Shown in pieces: positions 36,923-50,432 of a stretch of DNA of 59,119 nt. The position numbers and the translations under genes were made by a program. The number at the start of each line of letters is the position of its first letter. Within the stretch, counting starts at the first letter, position 1. The DNA comes from Chloroflexota bacterium (lineage in GTDB: Bacteria; Chloroflexota; Anaerolineae; Anaerolineales; UBA11858), in contig JABGRQ010000098.1 of NCBI GenBank assembly GCA_018648225.1, positions 1-59,119 on the forward strand. Direction: 5' to 3'. The notes below the pieces were generated by a model, which was given only the letters and a program-made list of their open reading frames with translations, was not told the origin of the DNA and searched no databases.

Positions 36923-37804
36923 ATGAAGTATTTACGCATTCTTCCATTTGTTATATTCTTGCTTTTCCTGGCCGGGTGTGCCACCCAGAACGGTGCGGCG
37001 AGTTCATCTTCCACGAACGCGGATACGATCGAGAATAAAGGCTCCGACACGATTGTCAATCTGGCACTGGCATGGGCTGAAGCATACCAACACGTCAATC
37101 CTGATATTCGTATCTCGGTCACTGGCGGCGGATCGGGAACCGGCATCGCGGCGCTGATTAACGGCACGGTGGATATTGCCAACGCCTCACGACAAATCAA
37201 AACCGAGGAAATTGAAGCCGCCCAGGCCAACGGCAGCGACCCGGTGGAGTTTGTGATCGCCCGCGATGCGATTGCGGTGATTGTGAATCTGGAAAACCCG
37301 ATCAATGAACTCACCTTGCAACAAATTTCGGATATTTACAGCGGGAAGATCAACAATTGGCTTGAAGTTGGCGGCGACGACCGTCCAATTGTACGCCTGT
37401 CGCGCGAAACCAACTCCGGTACGCATGTCTATTTTCTCGAAGAAGTTCTGCGCCTGGGCGAGAAAGACAACACAACCCTGTTCTCTCAAAATACGCTCTT
37501 GCTGCCTTCGTCGGAGGGCATCAGCGTTGAGATCCGCCAAAACCCCAATGCGCTTGGCTACGACGGGCTGGGTTATGTGACCGATGAAATGAAAGTCATC
37601 GCGGTTGCGCGCGAAATCAACACCGGTTATATTCTGCCCTCCGCAGAAACCGTTAACAACGGCAAGTACCCCATTGCACGCGATTTATATATGTATACCA
37701 ACGGCGAACCTACGGGAGCGGTCAAGACCTATCTCGATTGGATACTTTCTGCCGCGGCCCAGCCAATTGTGACCGAGCTTGGCTTTGTGCCGGTTTTCCC
37801 ATAG
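36923..37804 (+). CDS. pstS: Phosphate-binding lipoprotein PstS
   Basis: A 293-residue solute-binding protein with a lipobox 'FLAGC' near residue 19. The phosphate-site motifs are 'ENKGSDTIVNL' (binding loop), 'VTGGGSGTGIAALINGTVDIANASR' in two parts, and 'SRETNSGTHVYFLEE'. It captures phosphate outside the membrane and hands it to PstCA. The ATG has no Shine-Dalgarno site and lies right after a strong -10 box, consistent with a leaderless message. A small hairpin follows its stop and separates it from pstC. Confidence 0.93.
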   Translation: MKYLRILPFVIFLLFLAGCATQNGAASSSSTNADTIENKGSDTIVNLALAWAEAYQHVNPDIRISVTGGGSGTGIAALINGTVDIANASRQIKTEEIEAAQANGSDPVEFVIARDAIAVIVNLENPINELTLQQISDIYSGKINNWLEVGGDDRPIVRLSRETNSGTHVYFLEEVLRLGEKDNTTLFSQNTLLLPSSEGISVEIRQNPNALGYDGLGYVTDEMKVIAVAREINTGYILPSAETVNNGKYPIARDLYMYTNGEPTGAVKTYLDWILSAAAQPIVTELGFVPVFP

Positions 37805-37809
37805 ACACA

Positions 37810-37840
37810 GGTGAGACGCACTTGACAAGTGCGTCTCACC
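37810..37840. repeat. Hairpin between pstS and pstC
   Basis: Perfect 14-base arms (GGTGAGACGCACTT and its complement) around GAC. There is no long T run, so it more likely stabilises the pstS message or weakens read-through than acts as a full terminator. Confidence 0.75.
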
Positions 37841-37854
37841 CTTACGATACCCCC

Positions 37855-38751
37855 ATGAATAACGCTCTCAACTGGCGCGAAAAAATCATTACCCGTTTCA
37901 TCAAAGTATCCGGATACTCCGCCATTATTTTTGTCGGCCTGATATTCTATTTTCTGCTGCGCGAAGGCTTGCCTACGCTCGGCGAAGTTCAATTCAACAG
38001 TCTGTTCGCCACTCGCTGGTATCCCATCGAAGACTATTTCGGCATTTTGCCGCTGATTGGCGGCTCGTTGATCGTCACGATCGGGGCGACACTGATTGCA
38101 GTTCCGTTTGGCGTGGGAGCCGCAATCTACATCTCCGAAATCGCGCCCCGCTGGATGCGTGAAATCCTCAAACCGCTGGTGGAAGTTCTCGGCGGGCTGC
38201 CATCGGTCGTTCTTGGCTTTCTGGGGATTTTAGTGCTCTCGCCATATTTGCGCGTTTTGCTCGATTTACCCACCGGGCTGACCGCTCTGGCCGGGTCGCT
38301 GCTTTTGGGGGGCATTGCTATCCCCACGGTGGTCTCTGTAGCCGAAGATGCCCTCGACGCGGTGCCAAAATCGTACCGGGACGCGGCCCTGGCGCTGGGC
38401 GCCTCCGAATGGCAAACCATCTGGCGAGTGACGCTGCCCGCGGCGCGCTCCGGCGTGCTAACCGCCGTGATGCTCGGCATCGGGCGCGCCATCGGCGAAA
38501 CCATGACGGTAATGATGGTCACGGGCAACGCCCCAGTGTTGCCAACCGGCCTGAGCGCGCTCTTCGCCCCTGCCCGCACCATGACCGCCACCATCGCCGC
38601 CGAAATGGGCGAAGTTGCCAACGGCAGTGTTCACTACCATGTGCTATTTTTCATCGGCATAATTTTGTTCCTGATCTCGCTGATTGTCAACGTCACCGCT
38701 TCGGCGGTTGTCTTCCGGCAGCGCAAACGCCAGGAGCGTATTCTTTCGTAA
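37855..38751 (+). CDS. pstC: Phosphate ABC transporter permease PstC
   Basis: A 298-residue inner-membrane permease with six hydrophobic segments. The ABC-contact (EAA) loop reads 'SYRDAALALGASEWQTIWRVTLPAARSG' across two parts, and a preceding 'GGLPSVVLGFLGI' is typical of PstC/PstA. It forms the channel with PstA. A long cytoplasmic N-terminus is absent. I chose the ATG at 37855, after the hairpin. A longer reading would overlap pstS. It lies 6 bases upstream of pstA. Confidence 0.93.
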   Translation: MNNALNWREKIITRFIKVSGYSAIIFVGLIFYFLLREGLPTLGEVQFNSLFATRWYPIEDYFGILPLIGGSLIVTIGATLIAVPFGVGAAIYISEIAPRWMREILKPLVEVLGGLPSVVLGFLGILVLSPYLRVLLDLPTGLTALAGSLLLGGIAIPTVVSVAEDALDAVPKSYRDAALALGASEWQTIWRVTLPAARSGVLTAVMLGIGRAIGETMTVMMVTGNAPVLPTGLSALFAPARTMTATIAAEMGEVANGSVHYHVLFFIGIILFLISLIVNVTASAVVFRQRKRQERILS

Positions 38752-38757
38752 ACCATC

Positions 38758-39618
38758 ATGGCTTCTACATCCAAATCTCGTCTCACCACCCAACGCATCG
38801 GCTTCGGCCTGCTCACCAGCATGACACTGCTCACCGTGCTGCCGATTCTAGCCGTGGTCATTTATATTGTCGTTCTCGGCGCACCGGCAATATCCTGGGA
38901 ATTCCTCAGCGGCTTTCCCCGTGAGGGAATGCGCGCCGGGGGCATCTGGCCTGCCATCGTGGGCACGTTCTACCTCACCCTGGGTACAGCCGTCTTTGCT
39001 GTGCCGCTGGGCATCGGCGCGGCGATCTATCTCTCGGAGTATGCCCCCGAAAACCGCTGGACGCGGCTTATCCGCATTGCAATTATCAATCTGGCGGGCA
39101 TACCTTCAGTGGTCTACGGATTGTTTGGTCTGGGCTTGTTTGTGCTTTTCCTGCAATTCGGCACCAGCATCCTGGCCGGTTCGCTGACGCTCTCGATCAT
39201 GACGCTGCCCGTCATCATTAGCACCACTGAAGAAGCCCTGCGCGCTGTACCGCAAGCTTTTCGCACAGTGAGTATTTCTCTCGGAGCCACCAAATGGCAA
39301 ACCATCCGCCGGATTGTGTTGCCGCAGGCGCTGCCCGGTATGCTCACGGGCGTAATCCTGGGCCTGGAACGCGCCGCGGGGGAAACTGCGCCCATTCTGT
39401 TCACTGTAGCTGCCTTCTTCCTGCCGCGCTTGCCCTCCTCACCGCTGGATGCCACCATGGCGTTACCCTACCATCTTTTTGTCATCTCCACCCAGGTTCC
39501 AGGGATGCCGGTCAAAATTCAATATGGCACGGCGCTGGTGCTGCTCACCTTCGTCCTCGGCATGAACTTCATCGCCACCACCATCCGCTCGCGGGCGCGG
39601 GCGCGGCGTCAATGGTAA
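38758..39618 (+). CDS. pstA: Phosphate ABC transporter permease PstA
   Basis: A 286-residue permease, the partner of PstC. It has six hydrophobic segments and the motifs 'GIWPAIVGTFYLTLG', 'NLAGIPSVVYGLFGLG' and the EAA loop 'TVSISLGATKWQTIRRIVLPQALPG' (in two parts). The closing 'QYGTALVLLTFVLGMNF' is also typical. It is placed between pstC and the second pstB with only a few bases on each side, so one transcript is likely. Confidence 0.93.
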   Translation: MASTSKSRLTTQRIGFGLLTSMTLLTVLPILAVVIYIVVLGAPAISWEFLSGFPREGMRAGGIWPAIVGTFYLTLGTAVFAVPLGIGAAIYLSEYAPENRWTRLIRIAIINLAGIPSVVYGLFGLGLFVLFLQFGTSILAGSLTLSIMTLPVIISTTEEALRAVPQAFRTVSISLGATKWQTIRRIVLPQALPGMLTGVILGLERAAGETAPILFTVAAFFLPRLPSSPLDATMALPYHLFVISTQVPGMPVKIQYGTALVLLTFVLGMNFIATTIRSRARARRQW

Positions 39619-39624
39619 CTCAGC

Positions 39625-40380
39625 ATGAATAAAATCTCCATCGAAAACCTGACTCTGCATTATTCGGATGGCACTGAATCCTTGCGCAATATCACGATGG
39701 GCATCCCGGCCAACCAGATTACGGTTTTGTTCGGCCCGGCAGGAGGGGGCAAGTCGAGTTTGCTGCGGGTTTTAAATCGTCTCAACGATTTAGCGGATGT
39801 CACCTATCTGGATGGGCGCGTGCTCCTGGACGATGAAGATATTCTCAGCCCCAAGATCGATGTGATTAAACTGCGCCGCCGTGTGGGGATGGTCTTCGCC
39901 CGACCGGTGGTGCTGCCCATGAGCATCCGCCAGAATATAACCTACGGCCTGGAAGTTGCCGGAGTGAAAGACCACGCCCGCCTGGAATCCGCCGTAGAAC
40001 GCAGCCTGCAGCAAGCTGCGCTGTGGGGTGAAGTCAGCGACCGCCTGGACGATGCCGCGATTGCGCTCTCTGGCGGGCAGCAGCAGCGTTTATGTTTAGC
40101 GCGTGTATTGGCCCTGGAACCCGAAGTGATCTTGCTCGATGAACCTACCTCCGGCCTGGACCCGATTTCAACGGGGAAAGTCGAAGAGTCGCTGCAAGTA
40201 TTAAAGAAAACCTACACCATCATATTGGTCCCCCACTCGGTGCAGCAAGCCGCCCGCACCGCCGATTTTGCCGCTTTCTTCCTTCAGGGTGAGTTAATCG
40301 AGTATGCCGCCGAAAAAACCCTGTTCACGAATCCCCAACATCAACAAACCGAAGATTACGTCGAAGGCCGCTTTGGATAA
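39625..40380 (+). CDS. pstB: Phosphate ABC transporter ATPase PstB (operon copy, divergent sequence)
   Basis: A 251-residue ABC ATPase. Walker A reads 'FGPAGGGKSSLLRVLNRLND', so it deviates from the usual GPSGCGKST. The signature 'ALSGGQQQRLCLARVLA', Walker B 'VILLDEPTSGLDP' and switch His ('VPHSVQQAA') are intact. The Q-loop Gln of 'VGMVFQKP' is replaced ('VGMVFARPVVLP'), which may alter coupling to the permease. It is probably active but distinct from the copy at 36057-36821. It lies 6 bases after pstA and 24 bases before phoU. Confidence 0.9.
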   Translation: MNKISIENLTLHYSDGTESLRNITMGIPANQITVLFGPAGGGKSSLLRVLNRLNDLADVTYLDGRVLLDDEDILSPKIDVIKLRRRVGMVFARPVVLPMSIRQNITYGLEVAGVKDHARLESAVERSLQQAALWGEVSDRLDDAAIALSGGQQQRLCLARVLALEPEVILLDEPTSGLDPISTGKVEESLQVLKKTYTIILVPHSVQQAARTADFAAFFLQGELIEYAAEKTLFTNPQHQQTEDYVEGRFG

Positions 40381-40404
40381 TAATTTATTGGAAAGGAAAA
40401 TTGC

Positions 40405-41079
40405 ATGACCAGAGAGACATTAGATCACCAAATTCAGGGTTTACTCGACAGCATCCTGGCATTGGGCAGCATGGTTGAAGAAGCCATCATCAAAGCTGTT
40501 AACGCGCTGAAAAACCGCGATATCGAATCGGCGAAGAGCATTTATGATGCCGATTCGATCATCAATCAAAAACGCTTTGAAGTCGAAAATGCGGCCATTA
40601 TTACCATTGCGACCCAACAACCCATGGCGCGCGATCTGCGCATTTTGGCATCCGTGATTGATGTTGCCGGAGAATTGGAGCGCATGGGCGACTATGCCAA
40701 AGGAATCGCGCGAATTACGCTTCGCCTGGGAACCGAAGCGCCTATCAAGCCGCTGATCGACATTCCCCGCATGGCCGATATTACCGCCGGGATGCTCCAC
40801 CGTGCGTTAGGCGCTTTTGTCAGTGCGGATAAAGATTGCGCGCTGGCCCTTCCCAGAGAGGATGACGAAGTTGACCAACTGTATAATCAGGTATATCGGG
40901 AATTACTAACTTTTATGATCTCAGATCCCACCACCATTGATCGAGCTACCTATCTCTTGTGGGTGGCGCATAATCTGGAGCGCACCGCCGACCGCGTGAC
41001 CAATATTTGCGAGCGCACTGTGTTTATCGCGACGGGTGTTCTGGACGAGATTGACGTTTCAGACGACGAAGCGCGCTAG
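40405..41079 (+). CDS. phoU: Phosphate-signalling regulator PhoU
   Basis: A 224-residue all-helical protein made of two PhoU repeats. Each has the metal-cluster Glu/Asp pattern, seen as 'ELERMGDYAKGIARI' in the first half and 'NLERTADRVTNICERTVF' in the second. PhoU links transporter state to the PhoR/PhoB response and limits phosphate uptake. No PhoR or PhoB is in the window. GGAAAGGA precedes the ATG. A terminator hairpin follows at 41130-41176. Confidence 0.95.
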   Translation: MTRETLDHQIQGLLDSILALGSMVEEAIIKAVNALKNRDIESAKSIYDADSIINQKRFEVENAAIITIATQQPMARDLRILASVIDVAGELERMGDYAKGIARITLRLGTEAPIKPLIDIPRMADITAGMLHRALGAFVSADKDCALALPREDDEVDQLYNQVYRELLTFMISDPTTIDRATYLLWVAHNLERTADRVTNICERTVFIATGVLDEIDVSDDEAR

Positions 41080-41176: not shown

Positions 41177-41205
41177 CGTATCTCATGAGGGTGATGAATC
41201 TCCAA

Positions 41206-41274: not shown

Positions 41275-41643
41275 ATGTCTGCCGGAAAAATTATTGCGTA
41301 TGTCTTTGCCGCTATCCTGATTTTCTTTGGTGTGCTGTTTATCTGGGGCACATTCAGCCCGGAGGGGCAAATCGGATGGCTCGTAGTGGGTGTGATCAGT
41401 GTCGCCATCGGATTTGGATTAATCTGGTTTGCCGGGCGCAGCAAAGCCACACCCGCTGGTCAGGGGGAGAACGTAACCCTCAATATTGAACTCTCTGGCG
41501 ATGTCAACCTGGAAACGATGAAATGCCAATCTTGCGGCGGCGCGCTGACTGCAAATAATATCCAAATGCTGGCCGGAGCGCCAGTGGTCAACTGCCCGTT
41601 TTGCAATTCCAGCTATCAGCTTACTGAAGAACCGAAGTGGTGA
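41275..41643 (+). CDS. Small membrane protein with C-terminal zinc ribbon
   Basis: A 122-residue protein. Two hydrophobic helices ('IIAYVFAAILIFFGVLFIWG' and 'LVVGVISVAIGFGLIWFAG') are followed by a soluble part with two CxxC pairs ('KCQSCGG' and 'NCPFCNSSY'), a rubredoxin-like zinc ribbon. Both helices in a hairpin would keep the ribbon in the cytoplasm. The function is unknown. GGAGG precedes the ATG at 41275. It is 40 bases before the DUF2207-like gene and may belong to the same operon. Confidence 0.8.
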   Translation: MSAGKIIAYVFAAILIFFGVLFIWGTFSPEGQIGWLVVGVISVAIGFGLIWFAGRSKATPAGQGENVTLNIELSGDVNLETMKCQSCGGALTANNIQMLAGAPVVNCPFCNSSYQLTEEPKW

Positions 41644-41683: not shown

Positions 41684-43351
41684 ATGAAGAAAAAACTGAT
41701 TTCTTTTCTTTTTATTCTCACGATTCTACTATCCATACCGATTGACACATTGGCTCAGACTTATTATTTCAGTCTCGACCAGGAGATTGTCAATGTTTAC
41801 TGGCAGGAAGATGGCACCCTAGCGCTGGAATATGTCTTCTTCTTCACCAACGGCGCTGGCGTCTCACCGATTGATTTCGTAGATGTGGGTATGCCGAATA
41901 ATAATTACAACATCTCAAACATCACCGCCGATGTCGATGGGCACCCCATTCTCGATATTGAATCATCTCCCTACGTAGATAACGGCGTGGCGCTGGGTTT
42001 GGGCAGCAATGCCATTCAGCCCGGGCGCAGCGGACGCGTGCGCGTGGCGGTGGCAGGCATCCGCAATGTATTGTATACAGACTCGACAGACAGCGCGTAT
42101 GCCAGCGCTGTTTTCAGCCCAACCTGGTTTGGTTCGGAGTATGTATTCGGTTCTACAGATATTACTGTGATTTATCACTTGCCGCCAGGGGTCACATCTG
42201 AAGAACCCCGTTGGCACGCTTCCCCCTCGGGCTTCCCGGAGCAACCCCAGGCCGCGATCGACAACCAGGGCAGGGTTATGTATACCTGGCAAAATCCAAA
42301 TGCCAATGGTTATACACAATATAAATTTGGCGCATCCTTCCCGAAAAGTTATGTGCCTGAAAGCGCCATCTACGCGCCCGGCCTGCTCGAACGCCTGGGT
42401 ATTGACCCGGATGCGATCATCGGCTTCATGTGTTGCGGCGGGTTTGGGCTATTTTTCGTCTTCCTGAGTTGGGTCGGAAATCGCAGCGCCAAGAAACGTA
42501 AAATGAAGTATCTGCCGCCCAAGATTCGCATTGAAGGGCATGGCATCAAACGCGGACTGACCGCCGTAGAAGCGGCGATTTTGATGGAGCACCCCGCCGA
42601 TAAAGTGCTGACGATGATCCTTTTCGCCGTGTTGAAAAAAGAGGCCGCCAGCGTAATTTCGCAAGACCCCTTGAAATTGGATATTCAGCATCCGATTGAT
42701 GCCAAATTGCGTTCGTATGAACAAAAATTCCTGGAAGCTTTCCGCGAACCCAAAGCCGCCCAGCGACGCAAAAAATTACAAGACCTGATGATTGATCTAA
42801 TCAAGAGTGTTAGCACGAAGATGAAAGGTTTCAGCCACAAGGAATCGGTGGCCTACTATAAGCACATCATGCAAAAAGCCTGGCAACAAATCGAGCAATC
42901 CGATACGCCCGAAGTGCGCAGCGAACGCTACGACGAACACATGGGCTGGACCATGCTGGATAAAGATTTCGACCAGCGCACGCAGGATGTCTTTCGCGGT
43001 GGGCCGGTATTTGTGCCAATCTGGTGGAATCGCTACGACCCCACCTGGAGCCGCAAAACCATCTCCCGACCCGTATCGACCGGCAGCGTACCCAGCAGCG
43101 GCAGCGGGCGCTCTGCGCCCTCCATGCCAAGCCTGCCCGGCGGCGAGTTTGCCGCCTCGATGGTGACCGGGATGCAAGGCTTTGCCAGTGATGTGGTCGG
43201 CAATGTGACCGACTTTACCAGCCGCGTCACCAACAAGACAAATCCGGCGCCTGTTGCCACGAGCAGCGGAGGCCGCAGTAGCGGCGGCAGTTGCGCTTGT
43301 GCTTGCGCCTGTGCCGGTTGCGCCTGCGCCTGCGCAGGAGGAGGACGATAA
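41684..43351 (+). CDS. DUF2207-like membrane protein with a Cys-Ala repeat tail
   Basis: A 555-residue protein. A signal peptide ('KLISFLFILTILLSIPIDTLA') is followed by a beta-rich outside domain to about residue 240 and one membrane helix ('FMCCGGFGLFFVFLSWVG'). A cytoplasmic part of DUF2207 type follows ('RGLTAVEAAILMEHPADKV'), then a Ser/Gly/Pro-rich linker with one amphipathic stretch. The last 19 residues read CACACACAGCACACAGGGR: seven cysteines alternating mainly with alanine. With one span the tail is cytoplasmic. DUF2207 tails I know are Gly/Ser-rich, so the cysteines are unusual. A radical SAM gene with a PqqD domain follows within 51 bases. GAAGGAG precedes the ATG. Confidence 0.8.
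   Translation: MKKKLISFLFILTILLSIPIDTLAQTYYFSLDQEIVNVYWQEDGTLALEYVFFFTNGAGVSPIDFVDVGMPNNNYNISNITADVDGHPILDIESSPYVDNGVALGLGSNAIQPGRSGRVRVAVAGIRNVLYTDSTDSAYASAVFSPTWFGSEYVFGSTDITVIYHLPPGVTSEEPRWHASPSGFPEQPQAAIDNQGRVMYTWQNPNANGYTQYKFGASFPKSYVPESAIYAPGLLERLGIDPDAIIGFMCCGGFGLFFVFLSWVGNRSAKKRKMKYLPPKIRIEGHGIKRGLTAVEAAILMEHPADKVLTMILFAVLKKEAASVISQDPLKLDIQHPIDAKLRSYEQKFLEAFREPKAAQRRKKLQDLMIDLIKSVSTKMKGFSHKESVAYYKHIMQKAWQQIEQSDTPEVRSERYDEHMGWTMLDKDFDQRTQDVFRGGPVFVPIWWNRYDPTWSRKTISRPVSTGSVPSSGSGRSAPSMPSLPGGEFAASMVTGMQGFASDVVGNVTDFTSRVTNKTNPAPVATSSGGRSSGGSCACACACAGCACACAGGGR
43292..43348 (+). repeat. Coding repeat: Cys-Ala tail of the DUF2207-like protein
   Basis: Nineteen codons before the stop encode seven Cys, seven Ala, four Gly and a final Arg. 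Cys uses both TGC and TGT, and Ala uses GCT, GCC and GCA. The DNA is therefore not a simple slippage tract, and the protein pattern appears to be kept. Confidence 0.85.
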
Positions 43352-43366
43352 ACGTTCCAACTTCCC

Positions 43367-43388
43367 AACGTTTGAATGTTCAAACGTT
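43367..43388. repeat. Palindrome in the spacer before the radical SAM gene
   Basis: AACGTTTGAA and TTCAAACGTT are perfect arms around TG. It follows the short-period words CGTTCCAAC and TTCCCAACG. It could be a weak hairpin between the tail protein and the radical SAM gene. Confidence 0.6.
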
Positions 43389-43402
43389 TTATGGAGCCAC
43401 TT

Positions 43403-44800
43403 ATGCACCTTTTTAGCGGTATGCAATCCTTTATAAAAAAAGATGTTTTCCCACCCCCTGGCCTGCATCATTACCTGCGCGAAGCGCCCGGCGAGCGCAC
43501 GCGCGTCCATTTGCGCGTAGACCCTGACGGGCACGGCACGCTGATGATCAATGCCAATCAGGTAGTGCATCTTAACCCGACAGCGACGTTGATGGCTTTT
43601 CTCTTTCTTGAAAAAAAAACGCAAGAGCAGGCTGTGCGCCTGATTCAGCGTCAATATAAAATTTCTGCCGCCGACGCGCAGCGTGACTACTATCAATTTC
43701 TGGATGAATTCGAGGTCATCTTACAACCGGGTGGCTGCCTTGCCTGTTCGCTGGACGAGCTGGAAATCGCCATGCCTTTCAGTACGCGTCCATTGGCCCC
43801 CTATCGCATGGATTTAGCGCTCACCTATCGCTGCAACGACGATTGCGCCCACTGCTACAATGCCCGACCGCGCGACTTCCCTGAAATGAGTACCGACGAC
43901 TGGAAACGCGTCATTGACCGCACCTGGGAACTGGGCATTCCGCATATTGTTTTCACCGGCGGCGAACCCACCCTGCGGGACGATCTCCCTGAATTAATCG
44001 CTCACGCCGAGGCCAATGGGCAGATCACCGGGATGAACACCAACGCCCGACGGTTGAGCGATCCCCAGTTTGTGGCAGCCCTCACCGGGGCTGGTCTCGA
44101 TCACATCCAGATTACGGTCGAATCCCACGATGAAGCCATCCACGATCAAATGGTACGAAAAAATGGCGCCTGGCGACAGACCATCGCCGGGCTGAGAAAT
44201 GTGCTCGCCAGCCCACTTTTCGTGATGACGAATACTACTATGCTGCAAGCCAATTACGCCGGTATCGGCGCTACGCTCGATTTTCTGGCCGACCTGGGCG
44301 TGCCAACCATCGGGCTAAACGCGCTGATTTATGCCGGGCGCGGTCTGGATGTAGGCACTGGTCTGCATGAAAATGAACTGCACCCACTGTTGGAAACTGC
44401 CATCCAGAAAACCGAGGCCCGCGGCCAGCGCCTGATCTGGTACACGCCCACGCAGTACTGCCATTTTGACCCCATGCAATATGATCTCGGCGTCAAAGGC
44501 TGCACAGCGGCGCTCTATAATATGTGTGTGGAGCCGGATGGCGGCGTGCTGCCTTGCCAGTCCTATTATCATCCGCTGGGGAATATCCTGCACGATACAT
44601 GGGATTCGATTTGGAACCACAAGTTGGCTATTGGCATCCGGGAGCGCAGCTATGCCCCCGAGGCCTGCCATAATTGCATGTTGCTGCCCGAATGCGGGGC
44701 GGGCTGCCCGCTCTCGCTAGATGCAAACCAACCGGCGTTGATCCCTTTTAACAGCATTGCTACATTGACAGAAAATTTGGAACAACTGATTGCTTTGTAA
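43403..44800 (+). CDS. Radical SAM/SPASM maturase with N-terminal PqqD (RRE) domain
   Basis: A 465-residue enzyme. Residues about 30-110 look like a PqqD-type peptide-recognition domain. The radical SAM core follows with a canonical CxxxCxxC (Cys144, Cys148, Cys151 in 'CNDDCAHC') and a GGEP motif ('FTGGEPTLRDD'). The C-terminal SPASM part has many cysteines ('KGCTAALYNMCVEPDGGVLP', 'CHNCMLLPECGAGCPL') for auxiliary iron-sulfur clusters. This architecture is typical of enzymes that modify ribosomally made peptides. I chose the ATG at 43403: GGAG lies 6 bases upstream and it aligns with the paralogue at 47054. The tail protein upstream is the obvious candidate substrate. Confidence 0.92.
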   Translation: MHLFSGMQSFIKKDVFPPPGLHHYLREAPGERTRVHLRVDPDGHGTLMINANQVVHLNPTATLMAFLFLEKKTQEQAVRLIQRQYKISAADAQRDYYQFLDEFEVILQPGGCLACSLDELEIAMPFSTRPLAPYRMDLALTYRCNDDCAHCYNARPRDFPEMSTDDWKRVIDRTWELGIPHIVFTGGEPTLRDDLPELIAHAEANGQITGMNTNARRLSDPQFVAALTGAGLDHIQITVESHDEAIHDQMVRKNGAWRQTIAGLRNVLASPLFVMTNTTMLQANYAGIGATLDFLADLGVPTIGLNALIYAGRGLDVGTGLHENELHPLLETAIQKTEARGQRLIWYTPTQYCHFDPMQYDLGVKGCTAALYNMCVEPDGGVLPCQSYYHPLGNILHDTWDSIWNHKLAIGIRERSYAPEACHNCMLLPECGAGCPLSLDANQPALIPFNSIATLTENLEQLIAL

Positions 44801-44837
44801 AAGGCGCTAAAGACAACAACTGACGAACCAACCACCC

Positions 44838-45431
44838 ATGGCAAATCTGATTACTTTATTTCGTTTCCCCCTATTGTTTGGATACGTCGCTCTGCTATAT
44901 TCTGAAAACGCGGCGATTCAGTTGTGGTGCGTCCCTTTCATCGTTGTAATTATATTGATGGATACCTTCGATGGCATGATTGCCCGCGCGCTCAAAGAAA
45001 CCAGTTTGATCGGCAGCGTGCTCGATATTGCCACCGACCGCACGCTCGAAATCGTTCTGTGGGTCGTCTTCGCCCACCTGGGTCTGATCCCAATCTTCAT
45101 TCCGCTGATCGTCATCACCCGCGGCACCACCGTAGATGCGGTGCGCTCGGTGGGCATGCAAAAAAGCCTGAGCGCCTTCGAGCAGGTCAAGCATCCCATC
45201 ACTCGTTTTCTGGTATCTTCGCGCTTCATGCGCAGTAGCTATGGTATTGCCAAAGGTTTTGCATTTGCTTTTCTAACACTTGATCTCGGCCTGACCACTG
45301 CCGCTTCACCGTGGAGCCCGGCAATCCACACCACTGCATTAATTTTGTCCTGGCTGGCAGTCAGCTTTACCATTGCCCGCGGCTTACCCGTGCTAATTGA
45401 AGGCTATAGCTTGCTGAAGGAAACCGCGTAA
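44838..45431 (+). CDS. CDP-alcohol phosphatidyltransferase family protein
   Basis: A 197-residue membrane enzyme. The full catalytic signature of the family is present in 'LMDTFDGMIARALKETSLIG' and the following 'SVLDIATD', giving D-x2-D-G-x2-A-R, then G-x3-D-x3-D. Members join a CDP-activated lipid with an alcohol such as glycerol phosphate, inositol phosphate or another head group. Several hydrophobic helices follow. The alcohol used here cannot be predicted. It lies between the two radical SAM-type genes and is followed by acyltransferase and PAP2 genes, which suggests a shared lipid product. Confidence 0.9.
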   Translation: MANLITLFRFPLLFGYVALLYSENAAIQLWCVPFIVVIILMDTFDGMIARALKETSLIGSVLDIATDRTLEIVLWVVFAHLGLIPIFIPLIVITRGTTVDAVRSVGMQKSLSAFEQVKHPITRFLVSSRFMRSSYGIAKGFAFAFLTLDLGLTTAASPWSPAIHTTALILSWLAVSFTIARGLPVLIEGYSLLKETA

Positions 45432-45448
45432 AATTTCCTTGATTTTTC

Positions 45449-45506
45449 CTATGAGGAAACCAGGAAGCCAAGAATTTTTTCTCCTGCATTCCTAGCTTCC
45501 TTATAG
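45449..45506. repeat. Dispersed repeat, AAACCAGGAA family, copy 3
   Basis: ATGAGGAAACCAGGAAGCCA, a T-rich centre, then CTGCATTCCTAGCTTCCTTA. The left side matches copy 2 almost base for base, and the right side matches copy 1 (GCTTCCTTATA). It lies between the CDP-alcohol transferase and acyltransferase genes. Confidence 0.7.
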
Positions 45507-45521
45507 AAATACATCAAAACC

Positions 45522-46430
45522 ATGAATCTGAACTTCCAATCCCTCACCAACAGCCGTGCTGCCGTAGGGTTGACCCTGTGGATCGGCAAAACTCTGCCTC
45601 TAGGCATGGCCTACCGGCTGGCCGAATGGTTTGCCGGGCGAATTGCGCGCCGCGAAAACAGTATCACCCGCGCTGTACGCAGCAATCAGTGGGTGGCACG
45701 CGGCGAAAAATCTACCCCCGCTGAGTTGGATGAAGCCGTCCATGAAGTACTATGCCACGCCGGACGCTGTTTTGTCGACCTGTATCACAATATCACCGAT
45801 CCAGAAGGTCTGAAGACCCTCTTTGTACTCAGCGATAATGTGCGTAAATTGATTGAGCGCAGCCAATTCGACACTCCCGGCGCATTCATCGTCGCACCGC
45901 ATACCAGCGCCTTCGACCTGGTCTTGCTGACGTTGGCCTATCACGGCATGAATGGAAAAGTACTGACCTATGGCAACCCAACCGGCGGTTACAAATTGCA
46001 AAATGATCTGCGCGCCGCCACCGGATTGGAGATCACCCCCGTGCGCGGCCACGAAACCGAAGTCGAAGTCATCGAATATATGCGTAGCGGTGGCATCGTA
46101 CTCACGGCTATAGACCGTCCAATTCGTAATAAAGCCCACACGCTGACCTTCTTCGGGCAGCCCAGTCCACTCCCGGCGGGGCATATCCGCATGGCACTCG
46201 AAGCCGAAGTGCCGGTCATCGTTGTCGCACCGCAATTCATGCCCGATGGCACATATCACCTGCGCCTTTCAGAACCGATCTATATCCAGCCGCACGCTGA
46301 TCCGGCTGAGGCCTTACGCCTGCACGCCGAGGCTGTATTGAAGGTCATCGAGGGCTATATTCGCCAAACTCCAGGGCAATGGATGATGTATTATCCGGTT
46401 TGGCCGGAGCTAATTGGGAATGACGAATGA
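45522..46430 (+). CDS. LpxL/HtrB-like lysophospholipid acyltransferase
   Basis: A 302-residue membrane-bound acyltransferase. The HxxxxD catalytic motif appears as 'APHTSAFDLVLLTLAYHG', and 'PVRGHETEVEVIEYMRSGGI' and 'VPVIVVAPQFMPDG' mark the substrate strands of the LpxL/HtrB group. Such enzymes add an acyl chain to a glycolipid or lysophospholipid. Organisms of this type are thought to lack lipopolysaccharide, so the target is more likely a phospholipid or glycolipid. Its stop overlaps the PAP2 gene start (ATGA). Confidence 0.88.
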   Translation: MNLNFQSLTNSRAAVGLTLWIGKTLPLGMAYRLAEWFAGRIARRENSITRAVRSNQWVARGEKSTPAELDEAVHEVLCHAGRCFVDLYHNITDPEGLKTLFVLSDNVRKLIERSQFDTPGAFIVAPHTSAFDLVLLTLAYHGMNGKVLTYGNPTGGYKLQNDLRAATGLEITPVRGHETEVEVIEYMRSGGIVLTAIDRPIRNKAHTLTFFGQPSPLPAGHIRMALEAEVPVIVVAPQFMPDGTYHLRLSEPIYIQPHADPAEALRLHAEAVLKVIEGYIRQTPGQWMMYYPVWPELIGNDE

Positions 46431-47044
46431 TGAACTCACAAGGGTCAATTCACAATTCACAATTCATCATTGCTCTCGGCATCGCGCTCTTCCTCCTGGG
46501 AACCACCCACTTCGCTCCTGCCGTCGCCCTGTGGGATGCGCGCCTGTTCCTTGCCCTGCACCCCCCGCTGCGGCGTTGGACACGCACTTTCCAAATCCTG
46601 TGGCACCTGGGACGCACACCTTTTACCATACTATGCCTCATCGTCGCCGCGCTCTTCAATCTACAAAGCGGCGTGCAGGCTGCCATCGTCTTCGCCCTGA
46701 TCGCCTCCATCGAATGGAGCATCAAACGCACGCTGCAACGCGTCCGTCCCTTCACAGTTTTGCCCAATGTAGAAATGGGACAACCGCGTCAGCCGTACGA
46801 TGCGTCCTTCCCCAGTGGGGATGCCATGCGCATCTGGTTTTTAGCGTTGGCGCTGCCGACGACCTTCGGGGTGCCCCTGTTCGTCGGCGTAGTGATGAGC
46901 ATCCTGGCGTTGACCGTTTGCCTGGGGCGCGTGGCCCTGGGTGTTCACTATCCCCTCGATGTGCTGGCTGGAGCCGGGCTGGGCATTCTCGGCGCAGGAA
47001 TATTTCAAATGATGCTTGCCAATTTTCAATTTGCAATTCTTTAG
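46427..47044 (+). CDS. PAP2-family phosphatase
   Basis: A 205-residue membrane phosphatase. The three PAP2 motifs are 'KRTLQRVRP', 'SFPSGDAM' and 'GRVALGVHYPLDV'. The second motif has Asp where PSGH is usual, so catalysis may be weakened or the substrate changed. The family removes phosphate from phosphatidic acid, phosphatidylglycerol phosphate or undecaprenyl diphosphate. The first 13 residues ('MMNSQGSIHNSQF') are encoded by a dispersed repeat, so the true start is less certain. It overlaps the acyltransferase gene and lies 9 bases before the second radical SAM-like gene. Confidence 0.85.
   Translation: MMNSQGSIHNSQFIIALGIALFLLGTTHFAPAVALWDARLFLALHPPLRRWTRTFQILWHLGRTPFTILCLIVAALFNLQSGVQAAIVFALIASIEWSIKRTLQRVRPFTVLPNVEMGQPRQPYDASFPSGDAMRIWFLALALPTTFGVPLFVGVVMSILALTVCLGRVALGVHYPLDVLAGAGLGILGAGIFQMMLANFQFAIL
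46445..46470. repeat. CAATTCACAATTCACAATTC short-period repeat at the PAP2 start
   Basis: Three near-copies of the 8-base unit CAATTCAC run through the first codons of the PAP2 gene, just after the end of the acyltransferase gene. Similar words (CAATTTTCAATTTGCAATTC) also end the PAP2 gene. Confidence 0.6.
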
Positions 47045-47053
47045 GAGGCCGCC

Positions 47054-48199
47054 ATGAGCAACCTTGTCAATTCTATCCGAGAACTTTTTGTGCAAAAAGA
47101 ACCCCTACCCGTGGGCGTATTTCATTATCAAACCCCGCCCGAGGTCGAGAATCCTTACCGTCTGCACCTGCGCCTGGATGCCAGCGGTGAAGGCATTCTG
47201 ATCGTCAACGCTGCCACGGTGCTGCACCTCAACCAGACGGCTGCCGAATATGCCTACCATCTCGTACAGGAAACTCCCATTGAACAGGCCTCCCGCCAGA
47301 TCGCCCGCCGTTATCGCGTACCCGCCAAACGAGCACAGCAAGATTTCGCTGATCTCAAAGAGCGCCTGCTGACGATGATCGATATGCCCGATCTCGACCC
47401 GGTGTCATTTCTGGGGTTCGAGCGCGACGATCCATACGGCGGCGAGATTGCTGCACCTTACCGTCTGGATTGCGCCCTGACCTATCGTCTACCCAAAGGC
47501 GTAAACCCCGAAGTTGCCCCGACCAAACGCGTCGATCGCGAACTAACCACTACCGAATGGCAGACGATTATCGACAAAGCATGGCAAGCCGGAATTCCGC
47601 ATATTGTCTTCACAGGTGGCGAACCCACCCTGCGCGACGATCTACCCGAATTGATCGCCCACGCCGAAGCCAACGGGCAGGTGACGGGGTTGCTCAGCGA
47701 TGGGCTGCGCCTTGCTAATAAAGATTATTTCAATATGTTGCTTCAAACCGGCCTCGATCACCTGCTGATGGTGCTGCGCCCCGAAGACGAAGCCGCCTGG
47801 GCCGCACTTGAAAAGATTCTCCCTGAAGATTTGCATACCACTGTACATCTGAGCATCACCCCCGAGAATGCCAGTGCCACCCCCGCTCTGTTAGAACGTC
47901 TTGCCGAAATGGGCGCCAATGCGATTTCGCTCAGCGAATCCAGCCCCGCTCTCAACGAGACGCTTCAATCCGCTAGCGCGTTGGCTGCCGAATTGGGACT
48001 CTCGCTGGTCTGGGATGTACCTGTGCCGTACTCTGAACGTAACCCTGTAACTCTTGAAATTGAAGAAGATGCCCCACCGCAGGGAGCCGGACGCGCCTGG
48101 CTCTATGTAGAACCCGATGGCGATGTGCTGCCCACGCAGGGCGTTAACCAGATATTGGGCAATCTTCTGCGGGATGAGTGGGAACAGATTTATCGCTAA
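47054..48199 (+). CDS. Radical SAM-like pseudoenzyme with PqqD domain, all cluster cysteines lost
   Basis: A 381-residue paralogue of the protein at 43403-44800. The PqqD region (about 30-110) and the core motif 'FTGGEPTLRDDLPELIAHAE' are nearly identical. The CxxxCxxC stretch has become 'TYRLPKGVNPEVAP', and the protein has only one Cys in total (Cys140). The SPASM region stops early, at 'VEPDGDVLPTQGVNQILGNL'. It cannot hold the SAM-cleaving 4Fe-4S cluster. The reading frame is intact and AGGAGG precedes the ATG, so it is an expressed pseudoenzyme rather than a decayed gene. It may bind leader peptide for the active paralogue. Confidence 0.9.
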   Translation: MSNLVNSIRELFVQKEPLPVGVFHYQTPPEVENPYRLHLRLDASGEGILIVNAATVLHLNQTAAEYAYHLVQETPIEQASRQIARRYRVPAKRAQQDFADLKERLLTMIDMPDLDPVSFLGFERDDPYGGEIAAPYRLDCALTYRLPKGVNPEVAPTKRVDRELTTTEWQTIIDKAWQAGIPHIVFTGGEPTLRDDLPELIAHAEANGQVTGLLSDGLRLANKDYFNMLLQTGLDHLLMVLRPEDEAAWAALEKILPEDLHTTVHLSITPENASATPALLERLAEMGANAISLSESSPALNETLQSASALAAELGLSLVWDVPVPYSERNPVTLEIEEDAPPQGAGRAWLYVEPDGDVLPTQGVNQILGNLLRDEWEQIYR

Positions 48200-49071: not shown

Positions 49072-49674
49072 ATGCAATCCCAATATTCTCCATCCCAAAC
49101 CAGGCAACTCAAGAATATCTTCAAATGGCTCAACCGCTGGATCGTATTTGTCTTCCGCGCTGGCTTTGGCCCTTTTTTCACCCGACAAACATTTGCCGGG
49201 AAAATCATGGTCATCGAAAACGTTGGACGCAAAAGCGGCCTCATCCGTCAGGCTCCGGTCAACTATGCGATCGCGTCCGAAGGAAACGCGGTCTACTGCC
49301 TGAGCGGATTTGGCGCCAAATCCCAATGGTATCGCAATATTCAGCATAACCCGCAGGTAAATGTCTGGATCGGTGTGCAACGCATCCCCGGCATGGCTCA
49401 TTCGTTGGAGAATTTCGAAAATCATCTGGATATCTACCGTCGGGTGTTGATCAATAGCGGTTTCGCCGCACCGCTTTTTGAAGGCCTGAATCCCAAAACT
49501 GCGCCCAAAGAAATTATTCGCTCGATGGCACAACGCTCGCCTTTGATCCGCATTGAACTCGAAACCGCTCCCGAAACCACGCAACCACACCCCGCCGATC
49601 TGGCCTGGATCGTGATCAGCGCCCTGTTCGCCTGGGGCCTGCTGCGTCGAATGCTGTGCCGCAATCACGCATGA
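49072..49674 (+). CDS. Deazaflavin-dependent (F420) nitroreductase-family protein
   Basis: A 200-residue protein of the split-barrel DUF385/Ddn group. It has 'IENVGRKSGLIRQAPVNYA' (cofactor-binding strand), 'GAKSQWYRNIQHNPQVNVWIG' and a C-terminal hydrophobic segment that could attach it to the membrane. Members use F420 or a flavin to reduce various substrates. Whether this organism makes F420 cannot be judged here. GAGG precedes the ATG. Its stop overlaps the start of the methyltransferase gene (ATGA). Confidence 0.87.
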   Translation: MQSQYSPSQTRQLKNIFKWLNRWIVFVFRAGFGPFFTRQTFAGKIMVIENVGRKSGLIRQAPVNYAIASEGNAVYCLSGFGAKSQWYRNIQHNPQVNVWIGVQRIPGMAHSLENFENHLDIYRRVLINSGFAAPLFEGLNPKTAPKEIIRSMAQRSPLIRIELETAPETTQPHPADLAWIVISALFAWGLLRRMLCRNHA

Positions 49675-50432
49675 GTCTCACCCCGCAAGACTGGCACGCC
49701 CGTTTTAGCCAACAAGCCCAATGGACACGCGCCCTGCGCGCGCACCTGTTTCCGCGAATGGGATTTAATGTTGCGCGACAAATTTTGGATGTGGGCTGTG
49801 GTACAGGCGCGCTATTTGGGGAATTATTGGCCCAAAGCGATGCGGCTATTTTCGGCGTGGATATTCAACGCCAACACCTGAGGCTGGCGCGTACTCACAA
49901 AGATGTACTACTCTCGCAGGGGGATGCCCTCCAAATGCCATACGCCAATGAAGTATTTGATATCACCCTGTGCCATTTCCTGCTCCTGTGGGTCGCTAAC
50001 CCGGTGCAGGCGCTCAGCGAAATGGCGCGTGTGACACGTCCCGGTGGCATGGTGCTGGCTCTGGCCGAACCCGATTACGGCGGACGGATCGACTTTCCCA
50101 CGGAACTGGAGCAAATCGGTGCATGGCAAACCGAATCACTCAGACGTCAGGGCGCAGATCCGCTGATCGGGCGTAAACTCTCTGGGTTATTTCATCATGT
50201 TGGATTCGAAAATATCGAAACGGGGGTTTTAGGCGGGCAGTGGCGCGGTGCGCCGACAGATGATGCATGGAAAAGTGAGTGGAGCGTATTGGAATCAGAT
50301 TTCGCGCAGACGTCCGAGTTCTCTGGGAACTCGAACGTCTTAAAACAACTCGATGCTGGTGCCTGGGCAAGTGGCCAACGGGTACTCTTTGTGCCCACAT
50401 TTTACGCGATAGGTTGGGTCAGACAGCTATAA
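49671..50432 (+). CDS. Class I SAM-dependent methyltransferase
   Basis: A 253-residue methyltransferase of the UbiE/Methyltransf_11 type. Motif I is 'ILDVGCGTGALFGELL', the following acidic residue is in 'IFGVDIQRQHLRLA', and motif IV is 'DITLCHFLLLWV'. The substrate is unknown. The start at 49671 overlaps the nitroreductase-family gene by 4 bases, so the two are coupled. The last 6 bases overlap the end of the convergent HD-domain gene, with no terminator visible. Confidence 0.9.
   Translation: MSLTPQDWHARFSQQAQWTRALRAHLFPRMGFNVARQILDVGCGTGALFGELLAQSDAAIFGVDIQRQHLRLARTHKDVLLSQGDALQMPYANEVFDITLCHFLLLWVANPVQALSEMARVTRPGGMVLALAEPDYGGRIDFPTELEQIGAWQTESLRRQGADPLIGRKLSGLFHHVGFENIETGVLGGQWRGAPTDDAWKSEWSVLESDFAQTSEFSGNSNVLKQLDAGAWASGQRVLFVPTFYAIGWVRQL

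Follow-up and report, generated by a model that had tools for sequence, protein, structure and literature searches.

The 59,119-nucleotide contig JABGRQ010000098.1 of a Chloroflexota bacterium (assembly GCA_018648225.1), analysed over its whole length and referred to below as the window, contains a gene for a membrane protein that ends in a cysteine- and alanine-rich tail and, just downstream, a gene for a radical S-adenosylmethionine (SAM) enzyme, rSAM1. An original prediction from the sequence alone had placed six genes here, namely this pair, three phospholipid-type enzymes and a second PqqD-radical SAM homologue (rSAM2), and had proposed the seven-cysteine tail as the substrate of the radical SAM chemistry. 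The open reading frames and Pfam matches bear out the six genes and the tail, all on the plus strand (Table 1). The predicted gap of 51 bases between the pair shortens to 24 nt when measured to the first in-frame ATG of rSAM1; 51 nt fits a later methionine at 43403. The tail cysteines are residues 537, 539, 541, 543, 546, 548 and 550, giving the layout (CA)4-G-(CA)3. Back-translated, the pattern CACAGCACA(x)GG has an expected count of 0.00 in the window; its one occurrence is in the tail gene, and the Cys-Ala run is unique to this gene within the 4 Mb genome.

The AlphaFold2 model of the tail protein (predicted local distance difference test score, pLDDT, of 85) consists of a signal helix, an ectodomain, one transmembrane (TM) helix, a cytoplasmic domain and a disordered tail. 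Because a strongly positive flank, RSAKKRKMK, follows the single TM helix, the tail is predicted to be cytoplasmic, that is, to lie in the compartment where radical SAM enzymes work, and the single span (after the signal peptide) proposed earlier is supported by the same features. Structure comparison likens the ectodomain, at about 11% identity, to the N-terminal domain of M1 aminopeptidases and to ribophorin I, a non-catalytic fold. No model in Pfam or NCBIfam (June 2026) names the tail protein, and a PDB sequence search with it gave no useful match. The label "DUF2207-like" did not survive: at the Pfam gathering score the window protein has 0 matches to PF09972 or PF20990, the best of 30 homologues reaches E 0.079 to DUF2207_C, below the Pfam cut-off, and one relative with a tail of HSAC repeats reaches E 0.015 to DUF2207, again short of the cut-off, and we therefore rejected membership. 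DUF2207 proteins have a similar predicted ectodomain-TM-cytoplasmic layout and give marginal profile matches, whereas only the radical SAM-linked family, in which no member scores above the Pfam cut-off, has the Cys-Ala tail. At one further locus (L308, 4442-7078, minus strand), a single protein joins a Ser/Thr protein kinase, a homologue of the ectodomain and an FGE/SUMF1 domain, which marks the ectodomain as a mobile module of sensor-like character.

The DNA of 84,980 species genomes was scanned with the back-translated nine residues CACAGCACA as the query, which yielded at least 119 stretches. At least 106 membrane proteins from about 15 phyla, Asgard archaea included, end exactly in (CA)nG(CA)mGGGR; the terminal GGGR and other residues outside the query were not imposed by the scan, and the GGGR ending served as the criterion for this count. 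Among the tails listed, the (n,m) types are (4,3) in 58, (3,3) in 15, (5,3) in 13, (3,4) in 12 and (2,4) in 8. Chloroflexota contribute 71, Armatimonadota 7, Fermentibacterota 5, Planctomycetota 4 and Aminicenantes 3, with one or two each from Hodarchaeota, Heimdallarchaeota, Promethearchaeota, Sigynarchaeota, Coatesbacteria, Edwardsbacteria, Myxococcota, Zixibacteria, Acidobacteriota, Actinomycetota and Hydrogenedentota; many source records are metagenome bins, so that phyla known from a single record call for caution. One further match, from Bacillota (L213), has the motif followed by an extension and stands outside the count.

Every aligned tail-bearing protein from the scan is a homologue of the tail protein of the window. 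The last ten residues, CACACAGGGR, are invariant in 59 aligned homologues, with alanine as invariant as cysteine and GGGR as invariant as the CA repeats, while the carrier proteins drift to about 28-35% identity. Conservation of the tail from Chloroflexota to Asgard archaea despite this drift implies a chemical requirement for the exact Cys-Ala sequence. A DNA-level repeat or a recent copy is ruled out by synonymous variation: 71 tails gave 71 distinct 60-mers with a mean of 12.2 differences per 60 nt, all synonymous, with no amino-acid change among the tails selected in this way. A phage or mobile origin was likewise rejected: none of the 7 viral-contig matches to the tail pattern is a tail protein. 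In homology searches run without a tail filter, intact homologues of this type all carry the tail, and the tail-less ones are short or fused paralogues.

The tail protein and rSAM1 occur together. Among 101 relatives sampled at the level of the order, 59 have the tail protein and 60 have rSAM1; the two sets of genomes essentially coincide, and the three discordant cases (G054, G060 and G076) all fall at contig ends. Among 400 genomes drawn evenly from the phylum, the tail protein is found in 30, and exactly these 30 also have rSAM1 (Fisher p 7e-46, in a calculation that ignores common descent). Within four families (f11, f13, f1 and f14) both are jointly absent, which points to linked gain or loss of tail and enzyme. 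Across the at least 106 listed tail loci, the enzyme family lies within the locus (8 kb or less) in 91; of the other 15 genomes, 14 carry a gene for it at another site, and one Armatimonadota metagenome-assembled genome has none. Tails are thus not found mostly without the radical SAM genes, nor do the rSAM1 orthologues always lie beside lipid genes and never beside the tail: rSAM1 almost always adjoins the tail protein and seldom lipid genes. At two Asgard loci the tail gene and a gene for a zinc-ribbon membrane protein (ZnTM, described below) stand together, with the radical SAM gene elsewhere in the genome.

Natural variants show that tail and enzyme vary together. In family f19, which has a sister system, a related membrane protein carries a different, equally conserved tail of HSAC repeats (14 of 15 genomes); at these loci (L304, L305, L306 and L313-L327) the long (H-S-A-C)n tail ends in CHSACHSACHSACVS[RSN][VF], and beside it in nearly all loci examined lies a PqqD-radical SAM-SPASM enzyme 31-36% identical to rSAM1. 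A pattern search in Bacillota found 9 of 150 Lachnospiraceae and 7 of 398 genomes from the phylum (reversed control, 0), and all 15 distinct loci examined have the tail protein directly beside an rSAM1 relative. These shorter membrane proteins, from gut and other bacteria (L330, L340-L347 and L348-L353), carry CACACAGGG(R/G) and then extensions, the motif being followed by AGC(S/T)xKDFY or similar, or else ending in GGGGCT, with VS interruptions in some tails; for one Lachnospiraceae relative (L344), Pfam did not detect PqqD. The proposal that the tail is the substrate is strongly supported by co-occurrence, adjacency and covarying tails, and on these comparative grounds the tail is very probably the substrate of rSAM1.

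All three domains of the enzyme score above their Pfam cut-offs, as predicted for rSAM1 (PF04055, E 1.2e-24; PF05402 for PqqD, 30.5 against 23.4 bits; PF13186 for SPASM). Its CX3CX2C motif (C153/C157/C160) is invariant and its SPASM cysteines are present. Among 128 homologues, chosen by the CX2CX5CX3C part of the SPASM motif, CX3CX2C occurs in 127 and the six-Cys SPASM pattern CX9-15GX4C...CX2CX5CX3C in all 128; a seventh SPASM cysteine, missing from the window enzyme, is found in 38. A PDB profile search with rSAM1 placed SkfB first (4.9e-30), followed by PqqE (2.2e-27), BlsE and SuiB; CteB (5wgg) scored 2.1e-10, and anSME was also among the matches. No NCBIfam or Pfam model reaches its equivalog cut-off.

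We favour the reading, with a probability of roughly 0.6, that a SPASM radical SAM maturase modifies Cys-Ala residues in a cytoplasmic tail anchored to the membrane, most likely by forming thioethers. A thioether from the cysteine sulphur to the alanine C-alpha fits best because alanine is as invariant as cysteine and SkfB is the nearest solved relative; for the bond taken by itself we would put the odds somewhat short of even. Several observations weigh against this reading. rSAM1 scores far below the named sactisynthase families (SkfB, 69.9 against 300; AlbA, 70 against 850; StsB, 72 against 625 bits), and PqqE and NirJ2 outscore these families, themselves staying below their equivalog cut-offs (PqqE 117/381, NirJ2 120/500, AhbD 98/500). 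PqqE, NirJ2 and AhbD also lead for 39 rSAM1 homologues, all 39 of which match the PqqE profile. The bond type cannot be read from the sequence, since no sactisynthase cut-off is reached and the Lys-Trp cyclase SuiB is also close. Further points of this kind are a conserved methyltransferase, an unusual partner in sactipeptide systems; Bacillota tails that are not pure CA repeats (CACVSCACACVS...GGGGAGC); and the separation of the radical SAM gene from the tail gene in L156 (Sigynarchaeota) and L206 (Promethearchaeota).

rSAM1 might instead modify the tail by other radical chemistry, such as conversion of cysteine to formylglycine or thioaldehyde, D-epimerisation, C-S bond formation at a beta or gamma carbon, or modification of the GGGR end. 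SPASM and related radical SAM enzymes perform all of these chemistries, as anSME, PapB, QhpD, PqqE and EpeE illustrate, and SuiB, PqqE and anSME are among the profile matches of rSAM1. The invariance of GGGR and the conserved methyltransferase would also suit such chemistry, whereas SkfB is the best solved-structure match and the repeated Cys-Ala pairs suit many donor-acceptor pairs; for the GGGR end, the GGGG of some Bacillota means that the arginine is not always a target. We regard these chemistries together as unlikely, though a serious competitor.

The composition of the tail also raises the possibility of a metal-thiolate or Fe-S binding tail that stays unmodified, resembling a short metallothionein, with the radical SAM enzyme acting elsewhere in the pathway. 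Small metallothioneins resemble the tail in their seven cysteines and CxC spacing, and the nearby zinc-ribbon protein would suit this role. Plain metal binding would not need alanine to be as invariant as cysteine, and the constancy of the Ala spacers across Bacteria and Asgard archaea speaks against it, as do the exact co-occurrence with a PqqD-bearing, peptide-type radical SAM enzyme and the replacement of CA by HSAC where that enzyme diverges. We consider an unmodified metal tail improbable; a tail that is both modified and metal-binding is compatible with the data, as both can hold.

Clustering of the open reading frames around about 170 loci showed that four genes recur far above all others: those for the tail protein, the radical SAM enzyme, a class I SAM-dependent methyltransferase and ZnTM, the last two being absent from the original prediction. 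A ZnTM homologue lies directly upstream of the tail gene (in type-2 loci, of rSAM1) in 69 clustered loci; no Pfam or NCBIfam family scores above cut-off for ZnTM, whose reading frame in the window opens at 41185, with homologues beginning at MSAGK (41275). Of 65 loci with 2.5 kb or more of room, 54 contain a methyltransferase homologue; it shares the strand in 82 of 85 and is usually less than 100 nt away. Its nearest named family is the DVU_1556 family methyltransferase/TrsS radical SAM family (NF045667), presumably itself defined beside a radical SAM system, whose cut-off of 155 it does not reach (70). With ZnTM as Z, the tail protein as T, rSAM1 and rSAM2 as R1 and R2, the radical SAM enzyme of other groups as R, a type-2 second copy as R' and the methyltransferase as M, Anaerolineae have the order Z-T-R1-R2-M, Asgard archaea T-R-M, and loci with the (3,4) and (2,4) tails Z-R-R'-T-M.

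Table 1. Genes and protein features at the tail-protein locus; positions are nucleotides of the window unless given as residues
Feature	Position	Strand	Description
ZnTM, small membrane protein	41275-41643	+	two hydrophobic segments, CxxC...CxxC zinc-ribbon-like domain, conserved C-terminus YQLTEEPKW
Tail protein	41684-43351	+	555 aa; signal peptide, beta-sandwich ectodomain, TM helix, cytoplasmic domain, Gly/Ser linker, Cys-Ala tail
Tail protein, ectodomain	residues 29-220		AlphaFold2 model
Tail protein, TM helix	residues 242-274		AlphaFold2 model
Tail protein, cytoplasmic domain	residues 294-461		alpha/beta + helical; AlphaFold2 model
Cys-Ala tail CACACACAGCACACAGGGR	43292-43348	+	last 19 residues of the tail protein; predicted core peptide/substrate
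rSAM1	43376-44800	+	PqqD (RiPP recognition element)-radical SAM-SPASM, predicted tail maturase; PqqD, Radical_SAM and SPASM above Pfam cut-offs
CDP-alcohol phosphatidyltransferase	44838-45431	+	PF01066; local neighbour
LpxL/PIM-type acyltransferase	45522-46430	+	PF03279; local neighbour
PAP2 phosphatase	46427-47044	+	PF01569; local neighbour
rSAM2	47054-48199	+	PqqD-radical SAM pseudoenzyme; Radical_SAM above Pfam cut-off; no SPASM
Class I SAM-dependent methyltransferase	49656-50432	+	recurrent partner, 1.5 kb downstream of rSAM2

The clustered neighbourhoods contain no recurrent protease, transporter/exporter or immunity gene. Because neither a protease nor an exporter recurs, the modified tail probably stays attached to the membrane protein. 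This bears on the possibility of a true ribosomally synthesized and post-translationally modified peptide (RiPP), in which the membrane protein would be an oversized leader and the tail would be cut off and exported. The Gly/Ser-rich linker ahead of the core could hold a cleavage site, and rSAM1 has a RiPP-like recognition element (RRE) domain. The scaffold, however, is a large conserved protein with both an ectodomain and a cytoplasmic domain, unlike the short leader-core precursors of released RiPPs, and the core is near-invariant across phyla, unlike antagonistic peptides; we judge release to be quite unlikely.

The three phospholipid-type enzymes named in the original prediction are present, and lie between rSAM1 and rSAM2 in the genus of the window and several members of its family. 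They occur in 7-12 of the about 170 loci and, because they are confined to close relatives, they are bystanders or a local addition outside the conserved module. A lipid-linked product or a phospholipid pathway working with the module, also raised originally, finds no comparative support, as it is ZnTM, the tail protein, the radical SAM enzyme and the methyltransferase that recur across phyla; we rejected it as highly improbable. Directly upstream in the window are phosphate-transport genes resembling pstC-pstA-pstB-phoU (37738-41079), and phoU also lies near the zinc-ribbon gene in several relatives, which is probably chance synteny. An F420H2-dependent quinone reductase-like protein (PF04075; 49072-49674, plus strand) is encoded just ahead of the methyltransferase.

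The absence of cluster cysteines from rSAM2 is real and conserved. rSAM2 is 35% identical to rSAM1 and keeps an RRE-like domain, the barrel and a GGEPT motif, without CX3CX2C or the SPASM cysteines; its PqqD domain falls just under the 23.4-bit cut-off alone (20.5) and scores 23.5 in context. Both motifs are missing from 88 of 88 homologues, in which the PqqD-like domain is kept and GGE is invariant, and the rSAM2 model (pLDDT 87) matches SkfB over its full length (386 columns), SkfB and PqqE being its best PDB matches. rSAM2 is a conserved clusterless pseudoenzyme in Chloroflexota, and it is an add-on to the module, because the Asgard, Aminicenantes, Fermentibacterota and Lachnospiraceae loci examined hold one live enzyme only. 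The type-2 copy R' also lacks CX3CX2C, keeps CX2CX5CX3C in 10 of 11 cases and has lost GGE in the aligned sequences. Independent origins of rSAM2 and R' were considered and set aside: the two lie apart in the tree, yet a single origin was not rejected (approximately unbiased test, p 0.27). In family f8 (L100, L109 and L115-L117), the tail gene adjoins the dead rSAM2, and rSAM1 is convergent to the tail gene, beside a 335-aa tail-less paralogue ending near TTFYG.

On the favoured reading, the tail protein would span the membrane, exposing its ectodomain on the outside and holding the Cys-Ala tail in the cytoplasm on a flexible Gly/Ser linker. rSAM1 would dock through its PqqD/RRE domain onto the cytoplasmic part of the protein and modify the tail using its radical SAM cluster and SPASM auxiliary clusters. 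Most likely it would abstract hydrogen from alanine and close a thioether from the cysteine sulphur to the alanine carbon (sactionine type), so that (CA)4-G-(CA)3 may fold into a cross-linked cap. rSAM2, without cluster sites, would probably act as a substrate-holding or regulatory partner, the methyltransferase would probably add a further mark, and ZnTM may be an accessory at the membrane; the product would remain attached to the membrane protein.

Sactipeptide maturases (SkfB, AlbA, ThnB and StsB) share the RRE, radical SAM and SPASM/Twitch architecture and act on Cys-rich substrates. Unlike theirs, the candidate substrate forms the end of a membrane protein of 555 aa and hardly varies between phyla; rSAM1 reaches no NCBIfam cut-off, and the conserved methyltransferase, the zinc-ribbon membrane protein and a pseudoenzyme partner set the system apart. 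PqqE/PqqD and the mycofactocin enzyme MftC have a PqqD domain and a SPASM radical SAM enzyme in common with rSAM1, which is far under the PqqE equivalog cut-off, and in place of a PqqA- or MftA-like peptide, none of which was seen, there is the Cys-Ala tail. QhpD and anSME are radical SAM enzymes that modify whole proteins, their substrates being enzymes with a built-in cofactor or active-site residue. The likeness lies in a SPASM-type enzyme whose protein target retains the modification, and the difference in the target, here a flexible repeat at the end of a membrane protein.

The open-access PubMed Central literature yielded no paper on the pairing of tail and radical SAM enzyme, the tail strings, DUF2207 with radical SAM, or membrane-anchored thioether precursors. 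Peptide modification by SPASM radical SAM enzymes is known; a membrane-protein substrate with a Cys-Ala tail would be new. The broadest form of our proposal, which we consider about evenly balanced, is a widespread undescribed class in Bacteria and Asgard archaea in which the tail would be cross-linked in the cytoplasm and stay anchored, serving as a built-in centre for metal binding, redox chemistry or signalling and not as a natural product for secretion; each kind of tail, (CA)n or (HSAC)n, would have its own enzyme, and the pseudoenzyme would be a partner subunit. An identical tail in Chloroflexota and Asgard archaea on carriers that fall to about 30% identity is rare, and rSAM2 is a clear-cut example of a conserved radical SAM pseudoenzyme. 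Cultivable hosts carry the system (Ornatilinea, Leptolinea and the gut bacterium Hungatella), which offers a defined enzyme-substrate pair and, in HSAC, a natural second pair for probing radical SAM specificity. If the tail is modified, this would be an instance of radical SAM peptide modification whose product remains on a membrane protein, and the system points to an undescribed kind of modified, membrane-attached peptide, directly testable, in more than a dozen bacterial phyla and in Asgard archaea.

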